From the NCBI GenBank assembly GCA_900696525.1, contig CAADGL010000009.1, positions 1 to 64,000 of the forward strand: a stretch of DNA of 64,000 nt. Reading direction: 5' to 3'. The notes below the pieces were generated by a model. It did no database searches. It was not told where the DNA came from and worked only from the letters and a program-made list of their open reading frames with translations. This document shows, in pieces, positions 6,187 to 38,725 of this stretch; position 1 is the stretch's first letter, and the number at the start of each line of letters is the position of its first letter. The stretch is from an uncultured Planctomycetota bacterium (GTDB lineage Bacteria; Planctomycetota; Phycisphaerae; UBA1845; Fen-1342). The translations under genes were made by a program, and so were the position numbers.

Positions 6187-7407
6187 ATGACGCAACGCGA
6201 ACGGTTCCTGTCGATCCTGATGGCGGCGGCGTTTGTCATCGTCGGCGGGTACACCGCGATTTCCACGCAGATCATCCGCCCGATGCAGGAGCGCCACACG
6301 CGCATCGACCGGCTGACGAAGGTGCGCGACGACCTGCTGCGGCAGGCGCGGCACCTGCAGACGGCCCGCGCCAACTGGCAGGAGCGCACCGGCCGGACGC
6401 TCAGCGCCGACTGGCGCGAGGCGCAGCGCGTCTTCTACGACGACCTGCACGCGCTCGGCCGGGCCGCCGGCCTCACCGACCTGCGCCTGAATCCGCGCCA
6501 GCCGCGAGTCGAGCGCAAGGGCGACCGTGTCGATTTCTCGGAGTTGACGGTCGCCATCGACGCCCGCGGCACGCTCGCCCAGCTTACGGATTTCCTCCAG
6601 CGCTTCTACCGCCGACCCTACTATGCGCGCATCGATTCGCTCCGCCTCATACCCGCGCCCGAGCACCTTCAGCAGGCCCAGCCCCGTCCCGCCGCCTCTC
6701 GCACGCCGCCGCGCAACAACCGGCGGCCCGGCGAGCGGGCGCCGGCCTCCGGGGGAGGAGGCGCGAGCCCCGCGCGCAGCGCGGACGATTCGGACCTCGT
6801 GCTGACGGTGACGCTGGAGCTGACGACGCTCGTGCTGCCGCAGGTGGCGACGGCGCCGTCGAAGCCTCTTGATCCGAACGTGCTGCACGACGAGCAGGCG
6901 CTGGCCCTGGCCGACCCTGGCCGGCTGGCCAGCACGCCGGCAGACTACGACCGCATCCCCGAGGTCAACATCTTCAAGCTGTATCGCGAGCCGCCGCCGG
7001 TGGTCGTCACGCCGGATCCGCCGCCGCCGGTCGCCCGGGCGCCGGATACGCCGAAGCCGCCGCCGGGGCCGCCGCCGATACCGTGGGGCGAATTCGTGCT
7101 CATCGGGACGCGCTCGCTGGACGGTGAAGCGGTGGTGGATGTCCGCGACCCGCGCGCCGCGTCGGGGCCGGCGACGCCGTACGTGCTGAACGCGGAGATT
7201 CACGACGGGACGATCGTGCTGATCCATCCGATCGGGATGGTGGTGCGGGTGTGGAACGCAGACGGCAGCGGGACGGACTGGGTGTACAAGCTGGGGAAGC
7301 CGTTCAGCGCGCGGGAAGTGCTCGATCCGGAGCTTCACCCGGAACTGTACCACGAGGTGCAGATCGCGCTCGCCCCGCCCGCCCCGCCGCCGACGGTCGA
7401 CCGGTGA
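6187..7407 (+). CDS. GspM/PilO-like assembly protein with Pro-rich linker and C-terminal beta domain
   Basis: A 406-residue product with one N-terminal transmembrane segment (about residues 10-28), a coiled coil and a PilO-like ferredoxin-fold domain to about residue 160. A disordered Arg/Pro/Gly-rich stretch follows (about 160-200). A second Pro-rich linker (about 270-300) leads to a small C-terminal beta-rich domain that resembles the PilP/GspC homology region in position and size. PilO/GspM proteins pair with the GspL/PilN partner encoded just upstream. Fusion with a GspC/PilP-like part is an inference. The secretin, ATPase, platform and major pseudopilin genes are not in the window. Confidence 0.65.
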   Translation: MTQRERFLSILMAAAFVIVGGYTAISTQIIRPMQERHTRIDRLTKVRDDLLRQARHLQTARANWQERTGRTLSADWREAQRVFYDDLHALGRAAGLTDLRLNPRQPRVERKGDRVDFSELTVAIDARGTLAQLTDFLQRFYRRPYYARIDSLRLIPAPEHLQQAQPRPAASRTPPRNNRRPGERAPASGGGGASPARSADDSDLVLTVTLELTTLVLPQVATAPSKPLDPNVLHDEQALALADPGRLASTPADYDRIPEVNIFKLYREPPPVVVTPDPPPPVARAPDTPKPPPGPPPIPWGEFVLIGTRSLDGEAVVDVRDPRAASGPATPYVLNAEIHDGTIVLIHPIGMVVRVWNADGSGTDWVYKLGKPFSAREVLDPELHPELYHEVQIALAPPAPPPTVDR

Positions 7408-32104: not shown

Positions 32105-32794
32105 ATGGTCAGCACGCTGAACACGATTCCTACGCCTCGCTCGCCGGCGGCGGTCCGTCATGCGCTGCTCCTCCTGAGCGCCACGCTGCTGCTGAGCGGC
32201 GTCATCTGGCAGGCCGAGCCGCCGCGCGAAGCGCCCGCGGCGCCGCCGACGGCCGTCGCCGACACCGCGGCGATCGAGCGCCGCGCCGGGGGCATCGTCG
32301 GGAGCAAGCACGACTTCACGCAAGGCGGCGCGGCGGTGCGCGACCTGTGCCTCCCGTGTCACACGCCGCATATCACGGCGTCGGAGGCGCCGCTGCTGAC
32401 GCAGCGCGCCAGCGGGCGGATGCGGCCGCGCGGCTACGGCGCGATGGGCATCGAGCTCGACGCCGCCTCGCTGCTATGTCTTAGCTGTCACGACGGCGTG
32501 ATCGCGACGGACGTGTTTACCGGCCCGCACGCGATGAGCTGGGCGGAGCGCAGCGGCGGTGGAGCCGCTCCGGGGGCGAGCCGCCTGACGAGCCATCCGG
32601 TCGGCATCGAGTATCCGAGCGGCGCCCCCCGATACGCGTCGGCGACGACAGTGAACGCCGCCGGCCTGAAGCTTCCGAACGGGCGGATCCAGTGCACGAC
32701 GTGTCACGATCCTCACAACACGCACAACCACGCCGGGATGCTGACGATCTCCAATGCGCGCAGCCGCCTGTGCCTGACGTGCCACCGGCTGTGA
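32105..32794 (+). CDS. Tetraheme cytochrome c, secreted
   Basis: A 229-residue product with an N-terminal signal/anchor helix (about residues 18-36). It has four CxxCH heme sites (CLPCH, CLSCH, CTTCH, CLTCH) with nearby His for axial ligation. They lie in the pattern of doubled CxxCH domains, with ITASEAPLL-type spacers and a SHPVGIEYP segment. It is probably periplasmic and passes electrons to the octaheme protein downstream, whose start overlaps its stop (GTGA at 32791-32794). Confidence 0.85.
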   Translation: MVSTLNTIPTPRSPAAVRHALLLLSATLLLSGVIWQAEPPREAPAAPPTAVADTAAIERRAGGIVGSKHDFTQGGAAVRDLCLPCHTPHITASEAPLLTQRASGRMRPRGYGAMGIELDAASLLCLSCHDGVIATDVFTGPHAMSWAERSGGGAAPGASRLTSHPVGIEYPSGAPRYASATTVNAAGLKLPNGRIQCTTCHDPHNTHNHAGMLTISNARSRLCLTCHRL

Positions 32795-34710
32795 AGCCGC
32801 GCGGCGTCCGGTGCGGCAGGGCGCGGCGACGCGGGACCGCGCTGCGTCTCGGCCTGGCGGGCGCTTGCGCGGCGTCGGCCATCGCCGCCGCCTGGGGCTG
32901 CAACCGCGCCGAGCCGGCCGTCGATCGCCGCGTGCGCGTGGCCGACGTGCCTGGCGGGCAGCCGGTCGTGAATCTCGGGAACCTGCGCCTGACGCCGCCG
33001 CCTTCGCGCTTCGAGGTGCAACTGGCGGAGTTCCTGTTCGGCGCGGCGCCCGCGGCGGGTCCGGGCCTCATCAAACCCGTCGATCTCATCGCCGACGCGG
33101 CGGGCGTGCGCGTCAGTGACGGCGGCCACGCGGGCGTGCTGGCGCTCGGCAGCGCCGGCGATTATCTGCGCGGCGTGACGCTGCAACCCCCGCCCACCGC
33201 CCCGGCCGGGCTGCACCGCGCCCCGGACGGCGACCTGCTCGTCGCGGACGTCGGCGCCGCATGCGTCTGGCGATACGCCGGCGACGGGCGCCTCCGGCTG
33301 CGATACGCGCCACCGGCGGACGTGCCGTTCAAACCCGCGGGCATCGCGTGCGTCGCGGAAGAGGTGTGGGTGTCGAATTCCGCGGCGCACCGAATCGAGG
33401 TCTTCGCCGCCGGCGGCGTGTGGCGCAGGGCCATCGGGCGCCGCGGCCGCGGGCCGGCGGAATTCAGCGTGCCGCTCGGAATAACCCGCGACGCCGCCGG
33501 GAATGTGCTGGTCGTGGACATGTTCAACCGGCGCGTGCAGGTGCTCGACGCCGACGGCCGCTGGGTGCGGGATATCGGCGGTCCGGGCGAGCAGCCCGGT
33601 CGCTTTGCCCGGCCGAAGGCCGTCGCCGTCGGGCCGGACGGCGTCGTGTTCGTCAGCGACGCGGCCTCGCAATGCGTTCACGCCTTCGACGAGCGCGGCC
33701 GCGTGCTGCTGGCGTTTGGCGGGGCGGCAGACGGCGAGGACGCCTTGGCCATGCCCGCGGGCCTGGCGGTCATGCCGGGGCGCGTGAGCACGAACCGTGC
33801 ACCGCCGGAGTCCTTCTCGGCCGGCTATGCCGTCCTCGTCGTCGAGCAGATGGCGCGCCCCGGCGTGCGGGTGTTCGCGTGGCGCGGCGTGCCGGAGGCT
33901 CTGCCCGCGTCGCCCGCGTGGCTGGTGCCGCGCGGGAAGAAGCCCGCGACCGTCGACAGCCCGCACTGGCGTGCCGACGGCTGCCGCCAGTGCCACGCGG
34001 TGGACACGGCGGGGGGCCTCGCGCCGATCGCCGCGGACCGCGTCGATGCGCTCTGCGTGTCATGCCACGACGGCGTCCGCGCCTCGGCGGAGTCTCACCC
34101 CGTCGGCTGGCCCGCCGAAGGACCGCGCACACGCGCCGTCGCCGGCTGGCCGCTGGTCGAGGGACGCATCGGCTGCCTGACCTGCCACGACATGCGCGGG
34201 CATTGCAGCGAACCGGCGCGACGGCCGGCGGAGAACCCCGGGTTGCTGCGCGGCTACGACGCCGCGGCGCCTCTGGATTTCTGCACGCGCTGCCATGTCG
34301 CGGAGCAATGGCGCATCAATCCGCACGCCGGCGATCCCGTTGTCGGCCAGCGGCGCGACGCGCTGTGCGGCGCCTGTCACGACGCCACGCCCGAGCTGCG
34401 AGACGGACAGCGGCGTGGGGGCGGGGGGCTGCGGCAGGAGACAACGGCGTTGTGCCTGAACTGCCACGCGATGCACGCCGACCCTGCGCCGCATGGGCAC
34501 CTGGGTGTCGCCACGGACGCGCTTCGGAGTCGTGATCTGCTGCCGCTGGAAGACGGGCGCATCACCTGCGCGACGTGCCACAACCCGCACGCGCCGGGCG
34601 TCTTTCCCGATGGGACGCCGCTGGAGGCGCGCGCCGCGGCGGAGGCGGACGCGGCGGTGGGCCTGCGGCTCGATTACGCGGATCTCTGCCGCGACTGCCA
34701 CCCGAAGTGA
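32791..34710 (+). CDS. NHL beta-propeller/octaheme cytochrome c fusion lipoprotein
   Basis: A 639-residue product, start GTG overlapping the preceding stop. The N-terminus has an Arg-rich start and a hydrophobic segment ending AAAWGC, a plausible lipobox. Residues about 75-370 form NHL-type propeller blades (for example GNVLVVDMFNRRVQVLDADG and PAGIACVAEEVWVSNSAAHR). The C-terminal third carries eight CxxCH sites (CRQCH, CVSCH, CLTCH, CTRCH, CGACH, CLNCH, CATCH, CRDCH), two of them with NPH or DG contexts of multiheme cytochromes. Fusion of an NHL propeller to an octaheme domain suggests an electron carrier or reductase with a docking platform, at the outside of the cell. Partner unknown. Confidence 0.82.
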   Translation: MKPRGVRCGRARRRGTALRLGLAGACAASAIAAAWGCNRAEPAVDRRVRVADVPGGQPVVNLGNLRLTPPPSRFEVQLAEFLFGAAPAAGPGLIKPVDLIADAAGVRVSDGGHAGVLALGSAGDYLRGVTLQPPPTAPAGLHRAPDGDLLVADVGAACVWRYAGDGRLRLRYAPPADVPFKPAGIACVAEEVWVSNSAAHRIEVFAAGGVWRRAIGRRGRGPAEFSVPLGITRDAAGNVLVVDMFNRRVQVLDADGRWVRDIGGPGEQPGRFARPKAVAVGPDGVVFVSDAASQCVHAFDERGRVLLAFGGAADGEDALAMPAGLAVMPGRVSTNRAPPESFSAGYAVLVVEQMARPGVRVFAWRGVPEALPASPAWLVPRGKKPATVDSPHWRADGCRQCHAVDTAGGLAPIAADRVDALCVSCHDGVRASAESHPVGWPAEGPRTRAVAGWPLVEGRIGCLTCHDMRGHCSEPARRPAENPGLLRGYDAAAPLDFCTRCHVAEQWRINPHAGDPVVGQRRDALCGACHDATPELRDGQRRGGGGLRQETTALCLNCHAMHADPAPHGHLGVATDALRSRDLLPLEDGRITCATCHNPHAPGVFPDGTPLEARAAAEADAAVGLRLDYADLCRDCHPK

Positions 34711-34714
34711 GCGT

Positions 34715-35572
34715 TCACCACTCGCGCCAGTCGGGCACGTAGTACGGGTCGTTGGTGCGGCCGATGGAGCCGATGCGGAAGAGCGGCGAGGTGATGCGGC
34801 CGTTGCCGGGCCCGAGCGAGCGCACGTGGCCGTCGACGAAGGTCGCGTTGGCGCGCCACTCGTGGCGGAAGGAGGTCGTGGGCGATTCGTTCTCGCTCCA
34901 GCCGCCGAAGCCCTGGTAGAGCATGGGCGGATCGAGCAGGGCGCAGTTCTTGAGCCAGCCGCCCCAGTCGAGCATGGTGTCGCTGAAGGCCAGGACGCGC
35001 GACGGCGCCGAGACCGTCTCCATCGTGCGCCAGGGGCGTTTGCCGATCAGGTCGGCCCAGCCGGGCGTGTGCTTCGGCGAGAGGTAGTAGCCGTTGTAGC
35101 CGTAGGTGCTGGTCAGCGTCTTGGACTGCCCCTGCATGATCTCGAAGGTTCCCGGTGGTTGCACGGGGCACTCGTAGACGCTGGCGTGCCGCAGGTCGCT
35201 GGCGATGTAGGGCCAGGTGAGGCCGCGCGTCACGTCGACGCCCGCCGGCTCGTCGCGGCCCCACCAGTAGGTGACGTGCGGCGAGTCGGGCGTGGTCTGC
35301 CAGTAGGCCAGCGGAATGGCGCGCCCGCGATGGTCCGCCGCGTACTGGTGCAGCGCCAGTCCGAACTGGCGGAGATTGGTGGCACACTTCGTGCGCAGGG
35401 CCTGCTGACGGGCGCGGGCCAGACCGGGCAGCAGCATGGCCAGCAGCAGGGCGATGATCGCGACGACGACCAGCAGTTCGACCATGGTGAACGCGGCCCG
35501 GAGCGTGCGCTGGGTGCGCCGCCGCAAAGCCGCCGGAATGCGTGCCTGGTTGTCGTCGCCGTCTACGGACAC
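34715..35572 (-). CDS. Prepilin-like protein with H-X9-DG motif (DUF1559-related)
   Basis: A 285-residue product. After a basic leader of about 26 residues comes the prepilin motif [20 protein letters not shown], in which Ala rather than Gly precedes Phe. The C-terminal domain carries [19 protein letters not shown] and, near the end, [13 protein letters not shown]. This is the H-X9-DG motif of the large planctomycete family of pseudopilin-like proteins. The start is GTG at 35572, overlapping the 3' end of the beta-propeller gene by 10 nt. It is the third gene behind the cobalamin riboswitch. It converges on the octaheme cytochrome gene with 4 nt between stops. Confidence 0.8.
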
Positions 35573-37107
35573 GCCTTCCCCCAAGCCGCCAGCAGGATTC
35601 CGAGATCGGACTGGTTCACCGAGCCGTCGCAGTTCAGGTCGAACAGGTCGTCGCACGGGCTGCCGCCCTGGATCGTCCCGTAGCACGAGAGCAGCAGCCC
35701 CAGGTCCCCCTGGCCGACCGATCCATCGCCGTCCAGGTCGGCCAGGCACGCGCCCGTCGTCTCGAACGCCACCACCCCCGCCTCGCCGATCGAGTACAGC
35801 CAGCCGCAGTTGATCGCCGGCGAGCCGCCCGAGCCCTCATGGGCCGCGAGGACGAAGTTCGGGTCGGACGGCGTCCGTCTGAGATCGAGGATGCGCAGCT
35901 CCTCGTACGGCCCGAGCACGGGCGCCGTGTCCGGGACGCCCACATACAGCCGCTGCCGCGCCAGCGCGGGCTGGTAAGTCCAGCCGCCGACGAGCAGCGA
36001 CCCGCCGCTGTCCGCGTATGTATCCCAAAGCGGCTGGGCCGAACCGCCGAGGTCCTTGAAAGCCTGCACGCGGCTGGCGGACCCGAAGCCATCGATTCCC
36101 GCGGGAAGATAAATGCAGCCGTCGGCGGCGGCAACGGGGCAGGCGGTTGAGCGCTCGCAGGCGACGGTCCAGACGACGTGGCCGTCCGCGGTGCGCACCT
36201 TGAAGAGCCGGCTGTTGTTGCCCGTGCCCTGGAAGTCGTAGGTTGCAGCGTAGACGTGCTCGCTCGTCAGCGTTACGCCTCCGAAAAAGCCGTCGTCGCC
36301 CTCGACGGAGCGCGACCAGACGAGCTCGCCCGAGAGGGCGTCAAAGGCCCGCAGCACGCCGGGATAGAGGAACTGGTCCGGCGGGAAGAAAACGGCGTCG
36401 TAGCTGCCGACGTAGACGCGGCCATTGGCGTACGCGGGTGTCGCGCCCGAGGACGAGCCGAGCGGGCGGCTCCAGACGACGTCGCCCGGCTGGTACGGGT
36501 TGTGCCCGGCGTGAAACGCGTCGACGTTGACGGCGTGGAGCTGGCCGCCGGCGCCCGCACCGGTGAAGTCGCTGATGAAGGCGCGGTTGGCGGGCTGCCC
36601 CCCGACGGTGAGGTCCGAGGTGACCAGCGGGGAGGCATTGACGACGCGTTTGGGGAGCGTGGTCTGCCACAGCACGTCGCCGTCGTCGACCGCCAGGGCG
36701 TACAACGTGAAGCCCGAGGCGTACAGCACGGCGTCGTTGCGCTCGTCGATGGCCGGGCTGGAGCGGCTGTCGAGCTGGTCGCGCTCGATTTCGGTCCGCC
36801 AGAGGCGCTGGCCCGTGTGCGCGTCGAGCGCGATGGCGAGGTTGGCGACGTGGACGTTGTCGACAATGCGGCGTGCGCAGACGAACACGCGGCCGCCGGA
36901 TGTCACGGGGCTGCTTCGGAACACGAGGCGCTCGTCGCTCTCTGGAAGGGCGGTCCAGGCGGGCGGCGCGAGGGCGCGTGGGCCATGCACGCCGAGGCTG
37001 GAGCGCGCGGGGTCGGCGGCGAAGTGGGACCACTGGCCCGCGAGAGCCAATGGTCCCACACTCGCGGTCAACCACAGTGTCGCCGTGAATACAGCACGTG
37101 ATGACAT
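35563..37107 (-). CDS. Secreted PQQ-like beta-propeller protein with dockerin-like C-terminus
   Basis: A 514-residue product with a signal peptide (about residues 1-23, ending ALAG). Residues 30-450 are repeated PQQ/YVTN-like propeller blades, such as [35 protein letters not shown] and [19 protein letters not shown]. No catalytic residue stands out, so a binding rather than enzymatic role is likely. The last 60 residues carry two EF-hand repeats ([18 protein letters not shown] and [18 protein letters not shown]). The start is 6 nt after the stop of the PEP-CTERM gene, so it belongs to the riboswitch transcript. A propeller in a B12-controlled operon recalls BtuG of Bacteroides; that link is inference. 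Confidence 0.8.
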
Positions 37108-37113
37108 GCTATT

Positions 37114-38025
37114 TCACCGCGTGTCGGCGACGACGGACCGGCGAGCGGCCAGGGGCCGCCGCGCGGGTCCGTCGCCGGGTTGCCGACCACTTTTCCCCGC
37201 GTTCCTCCGGAGAGCGATGGAAAGGCCGAAGAGCGCGAGCGACGCGCCGCACGCCGGCTCCGGCACGACGGCGAAGGCGTCGATCTCGGGCGCATTCTGG
37301 ACGTCGGACGCGACGTCGATGCGGACGTAGTAGGCGGCGGCAAGGCCGCTAGGGGCGATGTCGATCGGCAGGCCGCCGCCCGAGCCGTCGTAGATCGCCT
37401 TTACTTCGGCGTAGTCCTTGCCCAGAAAATCGAGAAAAGTCAGCGCCGGGTTCAGCGGCTTGAGGAAGTCGCTCGGGAGGTTGCCGGGCACGTCGGAATA
37501 GGGCGTATCAAGGTCGAGATAGCCCTGCGCCGGCCAGACGCCATCGCCGAAGCCCGAGGCCACCTCGAAGAATGTCACGCCGTCGGCGCTGACCGACACG
37601 GTGAACGGGCCTTCGGAGAACAGGCCGGCGACGATGCCGTTGGGATAGTCGTCGTCGATGAACGAGCCGTTGCCGAACACGATCAGGTCGACGCCGTAGA
37701 GATGCGACGGATCATTGGTGATCGGCTCGTCAAAACGCACGGTGACGTGGCCGCCGGCGCCGATGCTCAGGATCTCGTCACTGCCGAACGCGGTGTTGAA
37801 GGGCGTGACCGCGCTGGCGTACTTGCCGCCGAAGTCTGCTTCTCCGGTGAAGCGCTCCGGTGAGCCGAGTGCCGTGAGCGGATTCGTGTAACCGAACAGC
37901 GGGTTGCTGCCCGGGACGTACGAGATCACCTCGTCGGCCCACGGATTTCCTCCGCCGGCCAGCGCCGCCGCGCCGCCGAGACTGAGCCCGAAGGCGAATC
38001 CACGAACACTGTAGGACCAGCGCAT
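37114..38025 (-). CDS. PEP-CTERM surface protein under cobalamin riboswitch control
   Basis: A 303-residue product; the ATG at 38025 has GGAGGAGG upstream. A signal peptide (about 1-23) precedes a beta-rich domain opening DEVISYVPGSNPLFGYTN, then ALGSPERFTGE, SIGAGGHVTVRFDEPI and GVDLIVFGNGSF. I recall similar domains in PEP-CTERM proteins of planctomycetes and verrucomicrobia. The sorting signal VVPEPACG (PEP at 255-257), a hydrophobic helix and an Arg pair follow, so an exosortase should process it. Unusually, about 27 residues follow the Arg pair, where most family members end. First gene of a three-gene unit behind the riboswitch. Confidence 0.82.
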   Translation of the reverse strand: MRWSYSVRGFAFGLSLGGAAALAGGGNPWADEVISYVPGSNPLFGYTNPLTALGSPERFTGEADFGGKYASAVTPFNTAFGSDEILSIGAGGHVTVRFDEPITNDPSHLYGVDLIVFGNGSFIDDDYPNGIVAGLFSEGPFTVSVSADGVTFFEVASGFGDGVWPAQGYLDLDTPYSDVPGNLPSDFLKPLNPALTFLDFLGKDYAEVKAIYDGSGGGLPIDIAPSGLAAAYYVRIDVASDVQNAPEIDAFAVVPEPACGASLALFGLSIALRRNAGKSGRQPGDGPARRPLAARRSVVADTR

Positions 38026-38238
38026 GCCATCCTCCTCCAAGGGTGGTTGTGCGGGCGCGAAGCGCGACCGCAGTCGCCAGCCGGAAGAGGCTGCAAACGT
38101 GCCGGTGTGCAGCGGCGATCCTGGGCTTGACGCAGAACGGGCCGACGCAGAGAAGCCTGCGGCTTGTCGGCTCGAAAAGCGGCGGATGCGACCTGACATA
38201 CCGGTTCGCCTCTCCCACGAAGGCAACCGAAGCAAGGC

Positions 38239-38460
38239 GGTCGATCTGGCAGGTCTTCTGACTCCCGGGCGTCGCCTGGGCGCTCGGCCGACGTGTCGGC
38301 GGAGAACCAAGGCACCTACTCGCCGCGCCTTCTCGGCCAAAGTGGCCAATGACTGAACTGCGTGCGGCTTTCGTTCCCGGTCACAGCGGCGGGGCCGTTC
38401 CGGATTCTCACCGGATTCCCTATTCTCTCGCCCGCAACGAGCAGGCGAACACCAGTGACC
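38239..38460 (-). promoter_or_regulatory. Cobalamin (B12) riboswitch
   Basis: Read on the minus strand this is a complete cobalamin aptamer. Its ends pair as P1 (GGTC and CTGG at 38452-38460 with CCAG and GACC at 38239-38249). The core has GGGAATCCGGTGAGAATCC then GGAACGGCCCCGCCGCTGTG (about 38366-38421), the CCACTTTGGCCGAGAAGGC arm (about 38325-38344), and the B12-box end GGGAGTCAGAAGACCTGCC (38248-38266). The RNA would start only about 6 nt before the aptamer. Bound cobalamin normally represses downstream expression. The 213 nt between aptamer and start codon contain no obvious T-run terminator, so control of translation or Rho-type termination is possible. Confidence 0.96.
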
Positions 38461-38472
38461 AATGCGAAAGAC

Positions 38473-38502
38473 ACAATAGCCAAGGCGGGGTGGGCAAGTC
38501 AA
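38473..38502 (-). promoter_or_regulatory. Promoter of the riboswitch operon
   Basis: Minus strand TTGACT (38497-38502) and TATTGT (38473-38478) are 18 bp apart. The predicted start near 38466 agrees closely with the 5' end of the riboswitch. The rest of the 38503-38725 gap shows no other convincing element; it also serves as upstream region for the divergent DUF1800 gene. Confidence 0.75.
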
Positions 38503-38725
38503 GCGCAAAATATTGTACTGGCGCGCTTCGCGGGCACGTCGCCACAACTTGCGATCATTCAACGACCTGCGCCCGCTCGACACCGGTTCTGTGACGCGGC
38601 GCGGGCCCGGGCGCCCCAACGCAATACACCGCCGCTCTCGTCGTTAGTCCCTTCAGGTTGCTTCGGGCTTTCGACAGAGCCGCGCACGTCCCAGCAGTTG
38701 CATCGCGGAAATGCGAGGTGAAGAA

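Follow-up and report, generated by a model that had tools for sequence, protein, structure and literature searches.

What does a cobalamin riboswitch control when no known gene for vitamin B12 (cobalamin) follows it? The question is raised by a stretch of 64,000 nucleotides from an uncultured Planctomycetota bacterium (assembly GCA_900696525.1, contig CAADGL010000009.1, positions 1 to 64,000; hereafter the window), in which three minus-strand genes stand behind such a riboswitch. A preliminary description of this DNA had proposed that they form a system for capturing cobalamin or other corrinoids. Operons that join a B12 riboswitch to surface binders are already known from Bacteroides. From the sequence comparisons given below, we consider it likely that the window holds a cobamide-capture operon, repressed by cobalamin, whose pseudopilin stands in the place of the TonB-dependent receptor BtuB.

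A complete cobalamin riboswitch precedes three packed genes

Read along the minus strand, the unit begins with a sigma-70-like promoter site at 38473–38502 (TTGACT, 18 nucleotides, TATTGT), which agrees with the consensus at 9 of 12 positions and is assigned by consensus match only; one such site was observed directly 5′ of the aptamer, compared with 0.0 on average over 50 shuffled sequences. The cobalamin riboswitch aptamer follows at 38231–38469. The covariance model RF00174 matches it over model positions 1–189 of 189 with 106 bits (gathering score 31.5; E 1.6e-25). No other Rfam match in the window passes its gathering score, and a second RF00174 was not found in the genome (3.6 Mb, 93% complete). 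The promoter and full aptamer of the preliminary description were thus recovered by the model search and the consensus match, and its gene spacing agrees with the exact coordinates: genes 1 and 2 are separated by 6 nucleotides, and genes 2 and 3 overlap by 10.

Gene 1 (P0003, 37114–38025, 303 amino acids) contains a BtuH-type domain at about 37261–37959, with a signal peptide and a PEP-CTERM-like tail recognized by eye. Gene 2 (P0001, 35563–37107, 514 amino acids) encodes a PQQ/BamB-like beta-propeller with a dockerin-like tail, secreted as judged by eye, and gene 3 (P0002, 34715–35572, 285 amino acids) a pseudopilin of the H-X9-DG/DUF1559 kind from a subfamily linked to B12 riboswitches.

The leader between aptamer and gene 1 (38026–38230, minus strand) carries a ribosome-binding site, GGAGGAGG, adjoining the ATG. 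A scan of 37950–38720 found no terminator-like site, and the leader folds no more strongly than its shuffles (z 0.26). Because of these two results, the riboswitch would be expected to act on translation at the GGAGGAGG site rather than by termination. Cobalamin would presumably repress the operon through its riboswitch.

The gene 1 family is homologous to the BtuH domain

As a single query, P0003 finds nothing at E≤1 in Pfam, NCBIfam or the Protein Data Bank (PDB), so that its relation to BtuH is seen only through the profile of its family. This profile (A1), built from an alignment of 24 family sequences with the fragment L106 left out, matches residues 392–659 of PDB 8BLW chain B with E 5.3e-16; the next match, an unrelated one, lies at E 0.18. 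The 8BLW chain is BtuG1 of Bacteroides thetaiotaomicron, and the matched region is its BtuH domain (PMC10404256), which sequence comparison shows to be homologous to BtuH2 in 7BIZ. One family member, L063, matches 8BLW (E 3e-14) and 7BIZ (E 3e-11) by itself and, like BtuH2, has PKD domains in front. By profile comparison, the gene 1 family is homologous to the BtuH domain. Both domains of BtuG1, there named BtuGH, bind cobalamin individually (PMC12751083). In BtuH2, Asn399 contacts the B12 phosphate (PMC8941943), and its equivalent is kept in 23 of the 24 family members, the window protein included. Together with the riboswitch in front, a feature that gene 1 shares with the BtuH domains of BtuH2 and BtuG1, these likenesses suggest that the gene 1 product binds a cobamide. 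It differs from BtuH2 in its tail, PEP-CTERM-like by eye, in the lack of a lipoprotein signal, likewise judged by eye, in the loss of the corrin contacts discussed below, and in that no BtuB partner was found.

The preliminary description had called gene 1 a PEP-CTERM protein anchored by an exosortase. By eye, the tail does show the motif (VPEP, a hydrophobic stretch, RR and 29 further residues); the PEP-CTERM models of Pfam and NCBIfam give no match at E≤1, so that exosortase anchoring, for which this motif is the evidence, is not upheld. A literature link between cobalamin riboswitches and PEP-CTERM was sought and set aside, as PMC12530212 ties PEP-CTERM genes to cyclic di-GMP riboswitches instead. 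Assignment of gene 1 to the DUF4465/BtuJ binders was also dropped: it has no PF14717 match, and a Pfam comparison of the 24 family members gave no hit at E≤0.1 for any of them. A scan of viral contigs found no gene 1 relatives.

The gene trio recurs behind B12 riboswitches

A single-sequence search with gene 1 detects relatives in 16 genomes out of 294 sampled from the phylum, one of the 16 being its own. In 15 of them RF00174 is found a short way upstream in the same orientation. In the sixteenth, G111, riboswitch and gene stand at the ends of two contigs, and a weak second hit has no riboswitch. A scan of genome contigs added one relative outside, in a Candidatus Hydrogenedentota record ordered riboswitch (93 bits), propeller-like gene, gene 1 relative and DUF1559-type prepilin. 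Profile A1 detects the family in 43 of the 294 genomes: 24 are within the gene 1 loci described next, one is the split G111, one is G073, where coordinates place the relative about 620 bases behind a riboswitch, and the other 17 fall outside the locus comparison.

For this comparison, genes were scanned within 4.5 kb behind 104 riboswitches. The loci are not a random sample: 16 were chosen for gene 1 (the window, L003 and 14 others), five (L155–L159) as belonging to the same class, and 83 (L066–L148) were picked to span many tool-defined families, family f31 being given additional members and weak riboswitches being under-represented. L057 and L065, both from G111, carry no riboswitch and were dropped. 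Within this set, a gene 1 family member stands behind 25 of 104 riboswitches, and 20 of the 25 loci also have a pseudopilin. Among the remaining five, the available DNA of L106, L108 and L147 stops at the gene or shortly beyond it; that of L063 and L145 continues. The whole trio of gene 1, propeller and pseudopilin occurs at nine loci, all behind B12 riboswitches: the window and L051–L055 with a propeller of the PQQ type, and L003, L062 and L064 with one of another type. The trio singled out in the preliminary description is therefore found again in eight other genomes.

This recurrence bears on the null reading, in which the riboswitch once belonged to an ancestral B12 gene and has come to drive unrelated genes by a chance rearrangement. 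We found no support for it. Chance rearrangement is strongly disfavoured by the 25 riboswitches that precede gene 1 family members (16 loci chosen for gene 1, 9 not), spread over several tool-defined families and the Ca. Hydrogenedentota record, and we regard it as very improbable.

No compared riboswitch locus holds both a pseudopilin and a TonB receptor

The more widely shared member of the operon is gene 3, to which the preliminary description gave no part in its argument. An H-X9-DG pseudopilin lies behind 33 of the 104 riboswitches, compared with 25 for gene 1, and a TonB-dependent receptor behind 27. No locus of the 104 has pseudopilin and TonB receptor together, and none combines a TonB receptor with a gene 1 family member. 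Among the 83 loci picked across families, which are neither random nor independent, 15 have a pseudopilin, 26 a TonB receptor and none both (Fisher p 0.002); because related genomes are not independent, this and the later Fisher value are descriptive only. A single tool-defined family, f4, holds both types, with a TonB receptor in G220 and a pseudopilin in G077 and G198.

The neighbors of the two kinds of locus overlap. At L157 the riboswitch is followed by a TonB receptor, a diphthamide-synthase-like gene and DUF6580; at L075 it is followed by a pseudopilin, a CxxC protein, a diphthamide-synthase-like gene, DUF6580 and a BtuF-like gene; and at L116 by a pseudopilin, a short gene, a BtuF-like gene, an ABC ATPase and a FecCD permease. 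The relatives of the window operon thus have the riboswitch of BtuB–BtuFCD import operons and, in part, BtuF/BtuC-like, diphthamide-synthase-like and DUF6580 neighbors, whereas the pseudopilin occupies the slot of the TonB receptor.

Binders are frequent at these loci. Twenty-two of the 33 pseudopilin loci carry a gene of a putative secreted binder family and 11 carry none. DUF4465 genes, which match BtuJ structures, occur at 6 of 104 loci, four of which (L066, L068, L086 and L159) combine DUF4465 with a BtuH-type domain and a pseudopilin. Planctomycetes include Mucisphaera. DUF4465 binders from outside the gut, one of them from Mucisphaera, are in print (PMC13398666), and this binder type (PMC12751083, PMC13398666) was not found in the window operon.

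Two readings of the pseudopilin are considered. In competence, pseudopili work through a secretin-like pore for DNA. By analogy, a pseudopilin of the H-X9-DG kind acting through a secretin-like pore might replace BtuB in a TonB-independent import route, carrying cobamides from BtuH-type, DUF4465 or propeller binders; we regard this specific form as rather unlikely, while some part for the pseudopilin in the passage of cobamides across the outer membrane, in whatever form, comes close to an even prospect. Alternatively, the pseudopilin could escort secreted binders during export or assembly by a type II secretion-like machine, B12 itself entering by an unrelated porin, a reading that we hold to be quite possible, if somewhat short of even. 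The 22 binder loci agree with such an escort, and the 30 weaker paralogues of P0002 in the window genome could mean one escort per cargo. The escort fits less well with the other 11 loci (ten of family f31 and L116), where the pseudopilin is the first recognized gene and none of the six binder families sought is present, other kinds of binder possibly being missed; 8 of these 11 carry a BtuF-like gene.

Several side observations concern these loci. The f31 loci that start with a pseudopilin are L074, L075, L077, L085, L090–L093, L097 and L098; a CxxC protein follows the pseudopilin in 8 of the 10, with diphthamide-synthase-like (PF01902), DUF6580 and BtuF-like genes in varying combination. DUF6580, a family of unknown function, lies behind 8 of 104 riboswitches.

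Gene 3 belongs to a pseudopilin subfamily tied to B12 riboswitches

The preliminary description had called gene 3 an H-X9-DG prepilin-like protein. N_methyl (22.4 bits, cut-off 21.2) and DUF1559 (34.5 bits, cut-off 23.3) support the assignment; the HX9DG model stays under its cut-off (15.8 bits against 19), and the literal H-X9-DG motif is nevertheless present. Five full-length relatives of P0002, 45–48% identical to it, lie behind riboswitches of other genomes. When P0002 was used as query, the riboswitch-linked copy headed the matches of the genome that carries it in 24 of 32 cases (11–77 matches per genome), where about one would be expected by chance; in 2 of 32 it was not among the matches listed. 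Consistently, in a quick tree the label "riboswitch-linked" needs 2 changes compared with a shuffled mean of 18.1, two paralogues falling inside. The tree took in 22 of the 30 window-genome paralogues and one other. From alignment A3, the second L051 hit and L086 were excluded. Relatives of gene 3 were not found on the plasmids scanned. These comparisons place gene 3, which shares N_methyl and DUF1559 with the H-X9-DG pseudopilins at large, in a pseudopilin subfamily linked to B12 riboswitch operons. The function of DUF1559 is described as unknown in PMC10632474, which counts 68 paralogues in P. limnophila and reports two as essential, and DUF1559 proteins have been listed as solute-binding proteins (PMC4807772).

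B12 need and transport genes of the genome

The window genome encodes B12-dependent enzymes, namely methionine synthase MetH and the C-terminal domain of methylmalonyl-CoA mutase, both over cut-off. No Plug domain of a TonB receptor was found in it, though a gene could have been missed at 93% completeness; across the phylum sample, Plug is present in 216 of 294 genomes. It is absent from 19 of the 32 genomes with a riboswitch-linked pseudopilin compared with 59 of the 262 others, many of which were not examined for the pseudopilin (Fisher p 3e-5, from a hand count not corrected for phylogeny). One strong FecCD permease gene, the sole one found, is present in the genome (L227, 8381–9355).

A model for the operon and the evidence against it

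Taken together, the data suggest the following course. When cobalamin is scarce, the riboswitch would let the operon be expressed. The gene 1 product, secreted and probably anchored at the surface, would catch the cobamide as a BtuH-type binder; the secreted propeller of gene 2 would serve at the surface in a BtuG-like or scaffold role; and the pseudopilin would serve the step for which other operons use BtuB. The operon proteins would presumably act together at the cell surface. The interpretation of the preliminary description is thus partly upheld. Its cobamide-capture system is supported by the aptamer, the recurrence of the trio, the BtuH homology and the DUF4465 and BtuF-like genes in like operons; the propeller as binder and exosortase anchoring find no support.

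A number of observations weigh against this model. At the level of loci, 44 of 104 have neither a pseudopilin nor a TonB receptor, 7 of them with less than 3 kb of DNA, and in G105, a genome of family f31, none of three riboswitches is followed by a pseudopilin, DUF4465 standing behind two of them. In 6 of 32 genomes another paralogue is closer to P0002 than the riboswitch-linked copy, and Plug domains of TonB receptors, for whatever substrate, are present in 13 of the 32 genomes with a pseudopilin. FecCD was the BtuFCD component sought in the window genome; its one good gene is neighbored by multihaem cytochrome genes, and an adjoining ABC ATPase was not seen, so that no inner-membrane step is assigned. 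For gene 1, the window protein by itself reaches no BtuH structure in the PDB at E≤1, and both structure predictions were too poor for fold comparison (mean predicted local distance difference test score 39 for the BtuH domain in a two-sequence AlphaFold2 prediction and 37 in the second prediction). Finally, the BtuH2 residues Q333, H476, Y510, W511 and W577 contact ribose or corrin substituents (PMC8941943), and none is identical in the window protein, in loops where the alignment is loose; Y510 aligns with Phe. Since the phosphate-contacting asparagine is kept and these other contacts are lost, the ligand of gene 1, if it is a cobamide, is probably held somewhat differently than in BtuH2.

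The lost contacts also leave room for a different purpose. The riboswitch might drive surface genes that serve another end under B12 shortage, for example adhesion to B12-producing neighbors. PEP-CTERM-like and dockerin-like parts are common parts of surface assemblies, and both occur in the operon proteins. On the other side stand the homology of the gene 1 family to a proven B12-binding domain and the co-occurrence of DUF4465 and BtuF-like genes in operons of the same type, and we consider adhesion or a similar role improbable.

If cobamide capture with a pseudopilin in BtuB's place is correct, BtuH-type B12 capture would extend from the gut species surveyed so far to environmental bacteria; the BtuH survey covers gut species and names Bacteroidetes and three Firmicutes (PMC8941943). 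One branch of the large, uncharacterized DUF1559 pseudopilin family would gain a functional context, and the question is posed of how B12 is taken up by bacteria that have B12-dependent enzymes and no detected TonB receptors. Were import by the pseudopilin true, it would be the first function for a DUF1559 protein, as far as the literature was searched, and possibly a new principle of vitamin uptake. Our literature search found no paper on BtuH in planctomycetes, and none combining any two of cobalamin riboswitches, planctomycetes and H-X9-DG. As far as these searches show, it is new that these bacteria hold a branch of BtuH type and that DUF1559 pseudopilins are linked to B12 riboswitches. 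Existing data might partly decide the matter, because strict dependence on supplied B12 is reported for P. limnophila (PMC12639061), for which an essential-gene screen has also been published (PMC10632474).

Gene 2 and the propeller families

The preliminary description saw in gene 2 a propeller with an EF-hand tail and, by likeness to BtuG of Bacteroides, the binder of the system. The propeller stands: PQQ_2 matches with 76.8 bits (cut-off 27.6); the tail is dockerin-like and under cut-off (19.5 bits against 22.9). Profile A6 of the gene 2 family matches BamB and quinoprotein structures (best E 1.1e-14), and BtuG is absent among the 37 distinct PDB sequences that it matches at E≤0.01. As a single query, gene 2 likewise shows no sequence link to BtuG, and gene 1 is the better supported binder. 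Gene 2 shares with BtuG the beta-propeller in a B12-riboswitch operon, and the fusion of propeller and H domain in BtuG1 (PMC10404256) is paralleled by the adjacency of genes 1 and 2. Gene 2 differs from BtuG in its matches to BamB/PQQ structures and in that no TonB receptor was found in the operon and no Plug domain in the genome. By analogy the propeller may work like BtuG, with membership of the BtuG family lacking sequence support.

A second propeller family lies behind 11 of the 104 riboswitches (L084, L110, L111, L118, L123, L126, L139, L146, L108, L147 and L003). Several members have a dockerin; a pseudopilin stands alongside only in L003, and a TonB receptor at none of the 11. In a PDB search with its profile A5, designed and WD40-type propellers lead the best 60 of 260 matches, which include E. 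coli YncE (E 0.0045) and do not include BtuG. The propeller-like genes of the Ca. Hydrogenedentota record and of L062 have no Pfam propeller match; they are so labeled because the profile of their shared family, A5, matches propeller structures.

Further genes at the riboswitch loci and next to the operon

A short secreted family, several of whose members have PEP-CTERM ends, lies behind 8 of 104 riboswitches (L056, L058–L061, L138, L156 and L158). The two members scanned match only PEP-CTERM in Pfam, under cut-off, and the family is a further candidate B12 binder. At L159, a 718-amino-acid open frame behind the riboswitch holds both BtuH-type and DUF4465 domains. It was not counted as a true fusion and may be two genes run together, as its interior shows by eye a PEP-CTERM-like end and another stretch resembling a signal peptide. 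At L052 the pseudopilin is succeeded by a small gene of BFD-like [2Fe-2S] type (6314–6604), with like genes at L050, L051, L053, L054 and L159; the Pfam match of the one member scanned is under cut-off, and the others were named by eye. MetE-like genes, named by eye after the B12-independent methionine synthase, lie within the scanned distance behind the riboswitches of L069, L089, L096 and L142.

In the window itself, a long open frame on the plus strand (32692–34710) converges on the end of the operon, its stop being 4 bases from the stop of gene 3. NHL-like repeats can be made out in it by eye, as can several motifs of the CxxCH type.

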